Shown here in pieces: positions 11,919 to 35,084 of a DNA stretch of 41,823 nt. The DNA comes from Bacteroidota bacterium (GTDB lineage: Bacteria > Bacteroidota > Bacteroidia > Chitinophagales > LD1): contig CANJVG010000014.1 in NCBI GenBank assembly GCA_947478005.1, positions 1-41,823 of the forward strand, given 5' to 3'. Position 1 is the first letter of the stretch, and each line of letters starts with the position of its first letter. Under the pieces are notes generated by a model. The model was not told where the DNA came from. It made no database searches and saw nothing but the letters and a program-made list of their open reading frames with translations. Position numbers and translations under genes: made by a program.

Positions 11919-13070
11919 ATGCGTAAATTATCGAGTCTTCTTTTGCTTTTATTTTTTTTCTCGGCCTGTAACCTTGCCGGTGGAAGTGATAAATATTCTA
12001 TTCAGGGAACACTGAAAAACAGCCAGGCCAAATCCATTATTCTTGAAAAGCTTGGCTTGCAGAAAATGATTACAGTAGATTCTGCTAAGGTGGATGACAA
12101 AGGCAATTTCAAAATGGAAGGTGTTTCTGAAAAAGGTTTCTATCGTCTTCGCTTAGAGGAAAAAACATTCTTTCTGTTTTTGTTGGAGCCTACTAAGTAT
12201 ACTGTTGACATTGATTTAAGCGGACAGGTGGAGCCATTCAAAGCAACGGGCTCTAAGGAGAATGAAGAATTTCAACGTGCGTTCAAAGTATTGGGTAGTG
12301 CACAACGCGATTTACAGGGCTGGAATCAGGCCTACCAAATGTTTGGCCAACAAGGAGCTTCGCAGGATACGTTGATGTATATTCAACAACAGCTACAAGC
12401 GGTGGCTATGCGTTTTGAAAGTTTAATCAGAGACAGTGCGTTGGCTGCCAAGAGCCCTCTGGTGGCTATGTTTTATGTAACCAATGCACCGGTAGATAAA
12501 TTCCCGAAAGAGAATCTGGCTATCATTCAGCGCATGGAAAAGGAAATTCCTACTTCTTCTTATACCAAGGATTACCGCGCTGCCTATACTAAATATGAAG
12601 AGCAATTGAAACAACAGGGTCAGGCGCAGAAGCCGGCTGAAGCGATTGGCGTGGGTAAAGAGGCACCTGAAATTGACCTAAAAAATCCCGAAGGAAAAAG
12701 CATTAAGCTTTCTTCTTTGAGAGGCAAAGTGGTGTTGTTAGATTTCTGGGCTTCTTGGTGTGGCCCTTGCCGTATGGAAATGCCGAATGTCGTGGCCGCT
12801 TATAACAAGTACAAATCAAAAGGCTTTACAGTGTACAGTGTGTCGCTTGATAAGGATGCAGGTGCCTGGAAAAACTCTATTGACAAATTGGGCATGATTT
12901 GGGAAAACCATGTGAGTGATTTGAAATGGTGGCAGTGTGAAGCAGCTTTGCGCTATGGCGTTCAGGGGATTCCTGCGGCCTATCTGTTGGATAAAAACGG
13001 GGTAGTTGTTGCTACTAATCTTCGAGGCAGTGCCTTGGACGAAAAGGTAGCTGAATTGCTGGCGAAATAG
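11919..13070 (+). CDS. TlpA-like thiol-disulfide oxidoreductase lipoprotein with DUF4369
   Basis: 383 residues. The signal peptide ends in a lipobox (FFSAC, Cys at about residue 16), so the protein should be a periplasm-facing lipoprotein. An N-terminal beta-rich DUF4369 domain covers about residues 24-120, followed by a helical linker. A thioredoxin/AhpC-TSA fold starts near residue 245, with the redox motif WCGPC (Cys281 and Cys284) and a cis-Pro region in GVQGIPAAYLLD. Many Bacteroidota carry several such proteins, thought to act in periplasmic disulfide reduction or cytochrome maturation. The partner is unknown. It lies 28 bases after gatB on the same strand and may be read from the same transcript. 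Confidence 0.92.
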   Translation: MRKLSSLLLLLFFFSACNLAGGSDKYSIQGTLKNSQAKSIILEKLGLQKMITVDSAKVDDKGNFKMEGVSEKGFYRLRLEEKTFFLFLLEPTKYTVDIDLSGQVEPFKATGSKENEEFQRAFKVLGSAQRDLQGWNQAYQMFGQQGASQDTLMYIQQQLQAVAMRFESLIRDSALAAKSPLVAMFYVTNAPVDKFPKENLAIIQRMEKEIPTSSYTKDYRAAYTKYEEQLKQQGQAQKPAEAIGVGKEAPEIDLKNPEGKSIKLSSLRGKVVLLDFWASWCGPCRMEMPNVVAAYNKYKSKGFTVYSVSLDKDAGAWKNSIDKLGMIWENHVSDLKWWQCEAALRYGVQGIPAAYLLDKNGVVVATNLRGSALDEKVAELLAK

Positions 13071-13123: not shown

Positions 13124-13840
13124 ATGATGATTAAAGTATGGAGAACTCTTCTTTCGGCTTTCGTTCTCTTGCTTCTGTTTGGCATAAATTCATTCGCTCA
13201 ATCCGATTCCGAATCAGACTCTATCACTACAAAGTTCAGAGGGTTTAAGAATGTAAAATTTGCGGGTCATCAGAATGTTGTCACGATGTCGCCTGTCCCA
13301 TTCTTTGTCGGGCAGATACCTTTTTGTGGCGAAATCAGGTTGACCTATGAGCGAATGGTTTCGCATAATCAATCGCTTAGCCTGGGTTTGTCGTACAACT
13401 ACCCCAGCATCTTTTTACTGGTTTTACCTGCAATAGCCAACCCTAATAGTGCAACTTTAAAAAACTACAGTTTGCGCGGTGGGCGCGTGACACTTGCCTA
13501 TCGCTATTATCCTTTAAAAAGCAAAACAGCTCCCGGTGGTTTGTTCTTTGGTCCTTACGGTTCTTTCAATTTTGTAAAAATAAAAGAACGCAAGGGCAAT
13601 GATGCTTCTTACGACCTGGTATATTATGCCGACGCTTGCGTGGTAGCAGGCTACCAGATTCCTTTGCGCAAAGGCGTTTATATGGAGTTTATGGGCGGGC
13701 TGGGTTACCGCATGAACAAGGTATATGAATATGACGGACGCACCAAAACTTCCGCCACGCACGATTACTATATCGTGAAACTACCTTTTGCCAATAACTT
13801 TAAAGTCCTGTTGCAGATGAATATCTGTTATGGATTTTGA
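13124..13840 (+). CDS. Putative outer-membrane beta-barrel protein
   Basis: 238 residues. A signal peptide (LLSAFVLLLLFGINSFAQ) precedes a Ser/Asp-rich mature N-terminus. The body consists of amphipathic beta strands with terminal aromatic residues (RLTYERMV, LSLGLSYNYP, RVTLAYRYYPL, GPYGSFNFVK) and ends in LLQMNICYGF, the C-terminal Phe expected of a BAM substrate. It resembles small eight-strand barrels often annotated DUF3575 or generic porin family, but I cannot assign it firmly. Two adjacent ATG codons give a one-residue ambiguity at the start. It is 53 bases after the TlpA-like gene and followed by the 41-bp repeat region. Confidence 0.75.
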   Translation: MMIKVWRTLLSAFVLLLLFGINSFAQSDSESDSITTKFRGFKNVKFAGHQNVVTMSPVPFFVGQIPFCGEIRLTYERMVSHNQSLSLGLSYNYPSIFLLVLPAIANPNSATLKNYSLRGGRVTLAYRYYPLKSKTAPGGLFFGPYGSFNFVKIKERKGNDASYDLVYYADACVVAGYQIPLRKGVYMEFMGGLGYRMNKVYEYDGRTKTSATHDYYIVKLPFANNFKVLLQMNICYGF

Positions 13841-13892: not shown

Positions 13893-14014
13893 GCTATGTA
13901 AATGGCCGGGATTCTGATTTCAACAACAAAAAGCAGGTACAAAAAAATGAAAGTGAAACTTACTTCCGAATATGAATTGTTCGATAGGTACTGTGAGGAC
14001 GAGTCAGATTACCT

Positions 14015-14280
14015 AAATGCTGTAAAGGAATGGCAGAATATATTCCGTTCGTTTAACTGCATGAGGAAGTATGGCGGAACAAAAACCGTTCGTGCAACTG
14101 CACGATGAGGTATGGCAGAATAAAAACCGTTCGTGCAACTGCACGATAAAGTATTTTGCTGCCATACCTTGTCATGCAACTGCACGATGAAGTATTTCTG
14201 TACAATACTTTATCATGCAACTGTTTTTGTGGTTTTGCTATTGCCATTCTTTATCATGCAGTAGTTTTTGGTGGTTTTTA
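14015..14280. repeat. 41-bp tandem-repeat array, six units plus a partial one
   Basis: Six consecutive units of exactly 41 bp start at 14015, 14056, 14097, 14138, 14179 and 14220. A seventh, partial unit fades out by 14280. Typical units begin ACTGCACGATGAAGTAT and end TCATGCA or TCGTGCA. Single units fold back on themselves: in the unit at 14179, bases 14182-14196 pair with 14204-14218 at 13 of 15 positions. Because 41 is not a multiple of three, the units cannot encode a repeated peptide in one frame, which argues for a DNA- or RNA-level element. The array fills most of the 518-bp gap between convergent genes. A 68-codon frame at 13902-14108 runs into it and is not convincing as a gene. Confidence 0.85.
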
Positions 14281-14358
14281 AGGAAAAAGAAGGGCGATTG
14301 GATTTGTTTTTGTCCTAACAGGATCTCCATCTTCCTTCATTGTGTTTAGCTGATCAGC

Positions 14359-14709
14359 TTAGTCATTTAACTTAATCGCCAAACTACCGGTTATGGCAGC
14401 AAAGCCACTTACCAGGCCGCCTACGAGGCCGGTAACCAGTAGCAGTGCCTTTACGCTTCCTTTTAAGGGCAGCAGCATCGCTACTTTACTGGCCAGCAGA
14501 TTATCGTTGGCGGCAGATAAAAGAAATGCGCAAAGCATCCAAAGCAAAAACACGCCCAGGAATCCCGAACCAAAGGCTGCCAAGGCATTTTGTTTTAAAA
14601 AATAGGCTACCAGAAAAGCAACAACGGCAATAATCCACCAAGGCATAAATAGTTGCAAGGCAGCAGAAGAGGTGGCGATGAGCGTTACGGAAATTAGGAA
14701 ATTTTTCAT
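14359..14709 (-). CDS. Small integral membrane protein of unknown function
   Basis: 116 residues, almost entirely hydrophobic. About four membrane segments can be drawn: residues 3-20, 22-40, 46-66 and 88-110. They are separated by short polar turns such as LKQN and SAANDN. The last helix is Gly-rich (VTGLVGGLVSGFAA), which often indicates close helix packing. No catalytic or binding motif is visible and I do not recognise the family. It begins 33 bases after the penicillin acylase stop on the same strand, so the two are probably one transcript. It ends facing the 41-bp array and the convergent barrel gene. Confidence 0.7.
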   Translation of the reverse strand: MKNFLISVTLIATSSAALQLFMPWWIIAVVAFLVAYFLKQNALAAFGSGFLGVFLLWMLCAFLLSAANDNLLASKVAMLLPLKGSVKALLLVTGLVGGLVSGFAAITGSLAIKLND

Positions 14710-25503: not shown

Positions 25504-25776
25504 TTGCTGGGCGAGGCGGGAGGCGTGCTGGGCGACATGGGAGCCGCGCTGGGTGACAAGGGAGGCGTGCCGGAAGACACGGGATGAGCGCTGGATGAAG
25601 AGGGAGCCGTGCTGGACGACACGGCAGCCATGCTGGGTGACACAGGAGGCGCACTGGACAAGGAGGGAGCCGCGCTGGGTGACAGAGGACTCGTGCTGGC
25701 TCTGCCGAGTGCGGTGCTGGTCTTGCCGGGAGGCGCGCTGGGTGCCACGAGATCGATGCTGAGCGAGACGGGATGG
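25504..25776. repeat. GC-rich 21-bp minisatellite, 13 units without indels
   Basis: Thirteen consecutive 21-bp units begin at 25504, 25525, 25546 and so on to 25756; two more degenerate units may extend it to about 25818. The consensus starts GCGCTGGGTGACA and ends GGGAGGC or GGGAGCC. Typical units are about 70% G+C, far above the neighbouring genes, and the plus strand is strongly G-rich. Because 21 is a multiple of three, several frames stay open for long stretches and read as heptapeptide repeats, but none has a convincing start or export signal or extends beyond the array as a gene. The array lies in the 628-bp gap between the efflux operon and the NADH dehydrogenase gene. The rest of the gap, 25820-25960, is AT-rich. 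Confidence 0.92.
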
Positions 25777-25964: not shown

Positions 25965-25996
25965 TTGTAATTGTCAGCTACTTATTGCAACATTTG
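25965..25996 (+). promoter_or_regulatory. Candidate promoter giving a near-leaderless ndh transcript
   Basis: TTG at 25965-25967, a 21-base spacer and AACATTTG at 25989-25996 (one mismatch to TAnnTTTG) end four bases before the ATG at 26001. Transcription would then start at or next to the start codon. Confidence 0.4.
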
Positions 25997-26000
25997 CCGC

Positions 26001-27314
26001 ATGTATATAAATGTTCCCGAAGTGAAAGTTCCGCGTATAGTCGTTATCGGTTGTGGCTTTGGTGGATTGGAGTTAGCCAAGCAACTGAGCAAAGCACCAG
26101 TGCAGATTGTCTTGCTCGACAAGAACAATTACCACACGTTTCAGCCATTGCTTTATCAGGTTTCTACAGCTGGCTTGGAAGCTGATTCCATTGCTTATCC
26201 TATTCGCAAGATATTTAAGAGGCAGGCTAATTTTCATTTTAGAATGGGAGAAGTGCAGCAGATTGTTTCCGCAGAAAATAAACTATTGACCAGCATTGGC
26301 GAACTGAAATACGATTACCTGGTTATTGCTACCGGTTCTACCACTAATTATTTCGGCATAAAAGAATTTGAGTAGAATGCCATGCCCATGAAGAGCGTGA
26401 CCGAAGCGCTGAACCTGCGCAGTTTGATTCTTCAGAATTTTGAAAAGGCTTTACTTACCAAGGACATCCATGAACAGGAGGCGCTGATGACTTTTGTGGT
26501 GGTGGGTGGCGGACCTACGGGTGTGGAGTTGGCGGGTGCTTTATGCGAGTTGAAGAAACACGTTTTACCCAACGATTATCCCGAACTCGATTTTAGAAAA
26601 ATGCGGGTGATTTTGATTGAGAACGGTGCACAGCTTTTGTCCGCCATGAACGAAACCAATCGTAAGCGCGCAGTGCTGTATCTCGAAGAATTGGGTTGCG
26701 AGGTTTGGCTGAACACAGGCGTAACAAAATATAACGGCACCGTGGCCGAAACTAAAACCGGCAAGCAGTTGCTTACCTTAGGTTTAATTTGGGCAGCGGG
26801 AATTAAAGGAGTATTGATTGATGGCCTGCATAAAGATTCGGTGAACGCGCCAGGCAGAATTGTAATAGATGAACACTGTAAGGTGAAAGGGCACGAAAAT
26901 ATTTTTGCCATTGGCGATGTGGCTTGCATGGTGCAGGATAAATATCCCAACGGGCATCCGCAGATAGCCCCGGTGGCTATTCAGCAGGGGCAGTTGGTAG
27001 CGAAGGTGATTAAAGCCGCAGGCTCATCTAAAATTGTTGGTCAGGCGACCAACAACGGCCTGGTGAAGCCTTTCGCTTACTTTGATAAAGGCACGATGGC
27101 TACTGTTGGTAGAAACCGTGCGGTGGTGGAGGTTAGTGGCGTTACCTTTGGGCGGTTTCTGGGTTGGCTGGCCTGGATGGGGTTGCACCTGATGTTGTTG
27201 GTGGGTTTCCGCAACCGCGTGACGGTGTTTATTAATTGGGTATGGAGTTACATTAATTATGACCGCAGTATTCGATTAATTATTCGTCCGTTCAATCGGG
27301 TGAAAAAGGATTGA
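26001..27314 (+). pseudogene. ndh: Type II NADH dehydrogenase interrupted by an in-frame TAG
   Basis: Read through, this is a 437-position NDH-2-like flavoprotein, which would pass electrons from NADH to quinone at the inner membrane face without pumping protons. The FAD motif GCGFGG is at residues 17-22, followed by NYHTFQPLLYQVSTAGLE and ATGSTTNYFG. The NAD motif VVVGGGPTGVELAG, the second FAD segment (NIFAIGDVA) and the C-terminal membrane-binding helix (WAWMGLHLMLLVGF) follow. Codon 125 is TAG (26373-26375), in the same frame, between KEFE and NAMPMKSVTEAL; homologues usually have Lys there, so AAG to TAG is the simplest change. The ATG at 26382 could restart translation but would lack the first FAD motif. 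A start at 25971 is possible but less likely. Stop-codon error, recent inactivation or a strain-specific mutation are all possible. Confidence 0.85.
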
Positions 27315-34674: not shown

Positions 34675-34745
34675 GATAAAAATAATTGCAGTATCTAAAT
34701 TCGACTCAGCCTATTTTAGTCGGAGAATTGTTTGGCTGTCATTCG

Positions 34746-34913
34746 CTGCAGCCGATTCAATCCAAACAACACTTTGGGTTCTATCAGTTGCAGCCGATTG
34801 AATCCAAACACCACTTTGGGCTCTATCAGTTGCAGCTTATTGAATCCAAACAACACTTTGGGCTCCATCGGTTGCTGCGAAAGGCATCTAAACGACTGTT
34901 TGGGTTCAATCGG
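34746..34913. repeat. 42-bp tandem-repeat array, four units with degenerate edges
   Basis: Units start at 34746, 34788, 34830 and 34872, each exactly 42 bp. Typical units begin TTGCAGCCGATTGAATCCAA and end TTTGGGCTCTATCAG. Degenerate flanking copies extend it from about 34704 to 34935. Left and right halves of units are inverted relatives: the left side of the first unit pairs with the right side of the fourth over about 20 bases with two mismatches. Frames read as 14-residue repeats on both strands, but none has a convincing gene start. The array sits in the 468-bp gap between two convergent genes, like the 41-bp array. The remaining part, 34936-35084, shows only an AT-rich 8-bp stem (TAAAAATA with TATTTTTA). 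Confidence 0.88.
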
Positions 34914-35084
34914 CTGCTGCGAATGCTTATCATGCACTTATTTTTTGCGCTTTTGTGCTTAAAAATAGCCTTTCGGTATTTTTAGGCGTAGCATTCCTAT
35001 AGAAAAAGATAGCGCTGACTTTTCTGTTTTTATTAGCCGAAAGTAGTATAAGCAAGATGACTAGTGAGGATTTTTCGATAAGTT

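Follow-up and report, generated by a model that had tools for sequence, protein, structure and literature searches.

A 41-bp palindromic tandem array in a Bacteroidota genome and a set of private intergenic arrays with steps near 21 bases

The window, that is, the whole stretch of 41,823 nucleotides analysed (contig C14 of the genome), carries a 41-bp tandem array at 14017-14280 with five full and two partial units, as determined by unit alignment and lag matches (table 1). The array lies between the convergent genes 13124-13840 (+) and 14359-14709 (-), an arrangement that had been correctly predicted. One of the flanking proteins has a DUF3575 match; the other is 116 amino acids long, has no Pfam match and adjoins a penicillin amidase. 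A short ORF of protein-like composition (13902-14108, +, with an ATG at 13947) enters the left end of the array. Besides itself it has one weak match (E 0.06) in 60 genomes, and it could represent either the beginning of a disrupted gene or a frame arising by chance.

Table 1. Positions of the array units and of related features in the window
Feature	Position	Strand	Basis
Partial, decayed 41-bp unit, left end	14017-14055	+	41-bp register, direct-repeat family D2
Unit 1, type A	14058-14096	+	unit alignment
Junction palindrome TCGTGCA-AC-TGCACGA, 16 bp	14090-14105	.	direct reading
Unit 2, type A	14099-14137	+	unit alignment
Unit 3, type B; a type-A left half, reverse-complemented, forms its right half	14140-14178	+	inverted repeat I1, alignment
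Unit 4, type C; near-perfect hairpin	14181-14219	+	inverted repeat I7, 16-nt arms, 88%
Unit 5, type A'; inverted, decayed type A	14222-14260	-	inverted repeats I3 and I4, 32 nt, 75%
Right flank, similar in the C84 copy	14261-14310	+	blastn match to query end 14285; on to ~14310 by eye
Class-mate, 21-bp array (also at 42, 63), unrelated sequence; partial overlap with weak gene call	25505-25770	.	
Class-mate, 42-bp array, unrelated sequence, between convergent genes	34731-34945	.	

Elsewhere in the window, the adjacent frames 25971-26375 and 26382-27314 (+) match the first and the second half, respectively, of Pyr_redox_2 (pyridine nucleotide-disulphide oxidoreductase), and judging from these frames the gene at 25971-27314 looks split. 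A coding tandem repeat of 216 bp is located at 378-1086, within a large protein carrying a type IX sorting domain. Secretion sorting domains of this type occur in two proteins and suggest that the genome belongs to the phylum Bacteroidota.

At lag 41 the region 14010-14280 shows 150 matches out of 230, against 46-78 at all other lags from 30 to 49, and TRF called 41-bp arrays at 14030-14154 and 14134-14223. The array is thus recovered by the lag scan as well as by the tandem-repeat finding proposed beforehand. The original prediction of at least six units of exactly 41 bp was fair, the array having five full units plus partial ones. With these five units the array has the at least four tandem repeats of 10-200 nt that characterize satellites. 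It is also non-coding: it lies between called genes, and a length of 41, not being a multiple of three, cannot keep a reading frame, which upholds the earlier exclusion of selection on a peptide.

The units follow the plan TGCA-(31)-TGCA, with AC joining neighboring units. Types B (14140) and C (14181) are palindromic, the right half of each being the reverse complement of the left half of type A. In unit 5 (14222-14260) the left TGCA has decayed to TGTT, and the second partial unit sits after 14260. The junction palindrome is exact at 14090 and at 14131-14146 and has one change at 14172-14187; 8 of the 10 invariant columns of the unit are found at the unit ends which make up this palindrome.

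The array is strongly self-complementary on both strands. The hairpin anticipated near 14179 was found in the unit at 14181, with arms 14181-14196 and 14204-14219 that are 88% complementary over 16 nt. The anticipated pairing between arms of neighboring units is real and larger than claimed, since 14090-14137 pairs with 14140-14187 (48 nt, 73%) and 14097-14128 with 14231-14262 (32 nt, 75%). Folded as single-stranded DNA, the array has a z of -7.4, with none of 200 dinucleotide shuffles as good; as RNA, z is -8.2 (+) and -7.0 (-) against 60 column-permuted surrogates that keep the 41-bp tandem structure.

A second copy of the array is located on contig C84 of the same genome, with 81% identity over 241 bp (blastn). 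This copy lies between divergent genes, in contrast to the convergent genes at the window copy. According to our reading of the alignments, the unit order is (partial A) A B A C A' in C84 and A A B C A' in the window, which indicates that whole units were gained or lost.

The arrays at 14017 and 34731, otherwise unrelated, both end in TTATCATGCA...TTTTTG (14251-14271 and 34927-34947; in C84, 3733-3753). This motif has 15 genomic places at up to two mismatches, against two for the reversed control. The remaining exact match, on contig C10, has no surrounding array and looks coding.

The search for the array sequence in 59 relatives revealed no further array. Matches were found in 4 of the 60 genomes, own genome included; G004, G008 and G016 show only single matches with no repeats. 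A scan for the exact pattern returned one stretch in the genome contigs and two in the viral contigs, none within a 41-bp array. The plasmid collection yielded nothing array-like (one 27-bp match at E 1) and the phage collection no match. The array at 34731 had one 46-bp plasmid match, from a halophilic archaeon (E 2e-3), which was taken as chance. Among the relatives there was no orthologous gap in which an empty site could be compared, because the genes next to the 116-aa gene and the flavodoxin gene vary between relatives. In genome G001, the orthologue of the 116-aa gene is followed closely on its 3′ side by an unrelated 42-bp array with two palindromes per unit (L061:1950-2152), which a terminator-like hairpin (L061:1880-1915) precedes. 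As an array at this place occurs in 1 of 17 loci of the genus, chance suffices to account for it. Two sets of candidates were judged coding and rejected, namely, a period-63 region beside the flavodoxin gene in G015 (L164), which lies over an open frame, and stretches of 45/57 bp in L066, L067 and L070.

The array is real and non-coding, and it belongs to a wider set of short non-coding arrays in the genome. Every position of a 451.8-kb sample was scanned for periodicity at lags 16-99; besides the window, the sample comprised 20 kb from the start of each of 20 large contigs (400 kb) and the initial 10 kb of C84. Stretches of N in L105 and L126 were passed over, and genes were called with a home-made codon-usage caller. 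The scan turned up 31 periodic regions, of which 26 are mainly non-coding and 5 are coding. All 26 non-coding arrays have lags near a multiple of 21 (seven of 21, two of 41, thirteen of 42, then 82, 83, 83 and 87) and none of the five coding ones does (18, 60, 60, 60 and 78), while 19% of lags would qualify; by our arithmetic, the chance of 26 out of 26 is 0.19^26, about 2e-19. Weak gene calls overlap two of the 26, whose coding fractions are 0.57 and 0.75. Without the window and C84, both of which had been chosen for holding arrays, there are 22 arrays in 400 kb, a density of 55 per Mb; were the sample representative, the genome would have about 220. Among the 127 intergenic gaps of 100 bp or longer, 21 are periodic, and after first-order Markov resampling none of the 127 is. 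In an all-against-all comparison of 26 arrays, the C14/C84 pair is the only similar one. Sequences nearly all unrelated and steps all of about 21 bases suggest that the step length matters rather than the sequence.

Twenty-one base pairs make two turns of B-DNA; no smaller whole number of base pairs preserves the helical phase, and the next ones are 42, 63, 84 and 126. The residual 21-bp periodicity of array-free intergenic DNA is weak, with z of 1.4, 1.9 and 3.1 at 21, 42 and 63 in this genome and of 2.1 and 2.9 at 21 in the relatives.

A coding origin of the repeats was rejected. Steps of 41, 82 and 83 break the frame, and 7 of the 8 frame-compatible arrays are without codon-phase signal (1 of 8 at p 0.05). 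The 87-bp step is a multiple of three, yet it is built of halves of ~43.5 bp.

The arrays are concentrated in this species. Ten other genomes of the genus (851 kb) contain 7 non-coding arrays, 6 of them near a multiple of 21, which corresponds to ~7 per Mb against 55-58 here (about eight times rarer, and about six-fold less per non-coding base). The seventh (L112:1-600, G009:C2) has a 77-bp step and is CRISPR-like, with repeats of ~47 nt and unlike spacers of 30 nt. Two more regions of the genus near a multiple of 21 (21 and 63 bp) are inside called genes. Seven genomes of the same family (488 kb) gave three candidate arrays with lags of 85, 87 and 88, two of which are within tolerance; these share one 20-kb stretch, L132 (G025:C5), at 61-240, 12021-12180 and 12881-13040, and are weak two-copy repeats. 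In 16 genomes from other families of the order (482 kb) no arrays were found.

Dyad symmetry is frequent within the class. Among the clearer arrays (20 of this genome and 4 of relatives), 17 of 24 (14 of the 20 own ones) have more inverted symmetry than any of 30 surrogates in which columns are permuted and the period is preserved. Stricter tests on TRF consensus units found 7 of 26 palindromic at p 0.05 (32 regions given, 26 with a consensus) and a significant local palindrome in 1 of 15, so that the symmetry is common and not universal. Folding energy goes beyond the surrogates in 12 of 24 (+) and 10 of 24 (-) of the clearer arrays (21 own and 3 of G017). Seventeen arrays were compared with simulations of neutral duplication, with settings of our choosing, and 9 of the 19 tests showed column conservation more uneven than simulated, chiefly in arrays of many units. 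For instance, the 21-bp array of L088 repeats a GAATA-TTATTC core, in which the spacer is free in sequence and fixed in length. The window array showed no uneven constraint in this comparison (p 0.52). Mismatches outnumber indel positions by ~9.5 to 1 over 33 arrays (35 regions given, 33 with a row), a ratio which is unremarkable and no sign of indel avoidance. Curvature was not special (3 of 21 arrays).

The original prediction offered three functions for the array: to end transcription from both sides, to give a small structured RNA, or to bind protein. That arrays of this class act at the RNA level, as terminators, stabilizers of mRNA ends or small structured RNAs, is improbable. The window array does fold very strongly, its flanking genes are convergent, and its minus strand has two terminator-like matches where 0.8 are expected. 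The second copy, on the other hand, lies between divergent genes, and the class is indifferent to gene orientation. Of 24 sampled arrays, 22 have both flanking genes, which are convergent in 4 cases, divergent in 6 and co-directional in 12, against 19, 34 and 74 for all gaps of at least 100 bp (chi-square p 0.88; the array at 25505 and that of L086, which overlap gene calls, were excluded). The median distance is 189 bp to 3′ and 184 bp to 5′ gene ends. With a divergent C84 copy and no bias in orientation or toward 3′ ends, termination from both sides is not the general function, while at the window locus itself it is conceivable. The small structured RNA is not supported either: no Rfam match was found at gathering thresholds, of the nine co-directional arrays that were folded only 3 do better on the sense strand, and half of the arrays fold no better than surrogates. 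The covariance analysis suggested with the prediction revealed no covariation between the paired arms of the unit hairpin; over ten units and 16 pairs, it stayed below the shuffled mean on all five measures (68.8% paired vs 72.9%). The hairpin as drawn pairs more cells than its six slid versions (68.8% vs 31-44%). The prediction had named the lack of related arrays, together with the lack of covariation, as speaking against it. This applies by half, as there is a related array in the same genome, and neither an array in the 59 relatives nor covariation was found. Terminator and RNA are disfavored as the function of the class. The two-turn step, the dyad symmetry and the invariant columns at the junction ends would all suit a protein-binding array, as far as the sequences tell, while the private sequences argue against a single sequence-specific protein.

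A constant step combined with a free sequence points to the geometry of double-stranded DNA, be it through the mechanism that forms the arrays or through what binds them, and the absence of a preference for orientation or gene ends and of a sense-strand bias points to DNA rather than RNA. The explanation we lean to, at slightly less than an even chance, is that the array is one of a genome-wide class of non-coding satellites which share a step of ~21n, an even number of helical turns, have mostly dyad symmetry and a sequence private to each locus, and are probably generated or kept through DNA geometry. It draws on the quantized steps (26 of 26 here and 6 of the 7 non-coding arrays in the ten genus members), the private sequences, the dyad symmetry, the folding beyond surrogates, the uneven columns, the general lack of a codon-phase signal and the whole-unit changes between C14 and C84. 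The arrays would arise through local tandem amplification in two-turn steps, and template switching, that is, inverted copying at palindromes, would yield the palindromic units B and C and the inverted A'. They would keep their register because the symmetric cores share roughly one face of the helix, so that a dimeric architectural protein of low specificity or a topoisomerase might line up on them. Against this explanation stand the steps of 41, of 87 (2 x 43.5) and the two of 83, which drift out of exact helical phase; the drift of the 41-bp step speaks against a strict phase requirement. Further points against it are the 7 of 24 arrays that fail to exceed the symmetry surrogates, the low counts of palindromic consensus units (7 of 26) and of significant local palindromes (1 of 15), the ordinary curvature and the window array's lack of uneven column constraint.

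The same steps may reflect no function at all. Neutral satellites could arise if the replication or repair machinery favors a step close to two turns in slippage or unequal exchange, and they would simply be tolerated between genes. This is possible although rather unlikely; the purely neutral form ranks close behind the architectural-protein or topoisomerase reading. It agrees with the private sequences, the indifference to gene orientation, the concentration in one species and the differing unit order of the two copies. The search for SbcD also agrees with it: none was found over the family cut-off in this genome, and it was found in 1 of 14 other genus members (G001-G014), namely, G011, and the model may miss a distant SbcD. 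From these profile searches the genus may be without this usual hairpin nuclease, and its absence could let palindromes persist. However, SbcD is lacking across the genus, which leaves the excess in this species unexplained, and neither the symmetry beyond surrogates in 17 of 24 arrays nor the uneven columns in 9 of 19 tests are expected from plain slippage. A search for Ku in this genome gave no match, which leaves a Ku-dependent fill-in model unsupported. A mobile REP/BIME-type palindrome that a Y1 (RAYT-like) transposase has dispersed and multiplied in tandem would fit the two dispersed copies, the inverted and direct units and the five Y1_Tnp matches of the genome. Such an element is very unlikely, as all other compared arrays are private and the Y1_Tnp count is ordinary (5 against 1-10 in 15 other genus members). 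The least probable origin, hardly to be expected, is a captured remnant of a plasmid centromere or iteron array. The 41-bp step with its 16-bp junction palindrome (7-2-7) recalls the 43-bp repeats and 16-bp inverted repeats given for sopC in the consulted part of the source (PMC6238139), whereas the plasmid and phage collections contain no related array (a 27-bp match at E 1 and none, respectively), the 15 proteins near the two copies and two class-mates include no partition gene (Pfam), and the cores of the class-mates are unrelated.

Taken further, the explanation by DNA geometry would imply a sequence-independent molecular ruler of two turns (~21 bp), an enzyme or an architectural protein, which builds and keeps some 200 private, mostly dyad-symmetric intergenic arrays, an element class defined by step and symmetry and not by sequence; this stronger form is tentative and we consider it rather doubtful. 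A class united only by step length and symmetry is overlooked by sequence-based repeat searches. If the two-turn step is enforced, each array would be a natural experiment on the geometry measured by a nucleoid, replication or repair machine, and unit numbers from the environment would make turnover directly measurable.

Comparison with known systems places the arrays beside several families of repeats. They are not CRISPR arrays, since the whole 41-bp unit is related throughout and there are no identical repeats with unlike spacers. The sopC locus of the F plasmid is close in geometry to the 41-bp array; it differs from the case here in its partition gene, none being present among the scanned neighbors, in the absence of a sequence match and in the unrelated class-mates. 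The REP/BIME elements, in the consulted sections of the literature (PMC2817692, PMC3733652), are likewise intergenic palindromic units in alternating orientation and tandemly amplified, and BIME-2 binds gyrase. Palindromic units in alternating orientation are present in the window array, in the form of its inverted repeats and inverted unit. BIMEs, however, have a genome-wide common sequence and are tied to RAYT genes, whereas the sequence here is specific to each locus; the unit occurs in two places only, the other arrays are unrelated, and without a shared sequence they are not a REP family. The tandem repeats of Borgs, as presented in the part of the source used (PMC9879509), are similarly private, intergenic, independently formed and genome-specific, some with predicted hairpins. 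Their units are perfect, head-to-tail, A-rich and in about half of the cases within ORFs; those here are diverged, mostly non-coding and of quantized step, and some window units are inverted.

Helical periodicity of A-tracts has been linked to nucleoid proteins (Tong and Mrazek, PMC3940949, consulted in part). Among titles and openings of abstracts, with few subscription journals covered, no description of non-coding arrays quantized at two turns was found. Some prokaryotes are known to have non-coding satellites of unique sequence, such as the long-repeat satellites of Methanobrevibacter ruminantium and Clostridioides difficile (Subirana and Messeguer 2019, PMC6749651). Like the arrays here, these are short intergenic tandem arrays, often unique and rarely transposed. 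The consulted parts of that article name no common step, and the terms "helical," "21 nt," and "42 nt" are absent from its text. In the present genome, by contrast, the step is near 21n, the units are often dyad-symmetric, and the density is ~55 per Mb by our own criteria, which differ from theirs.
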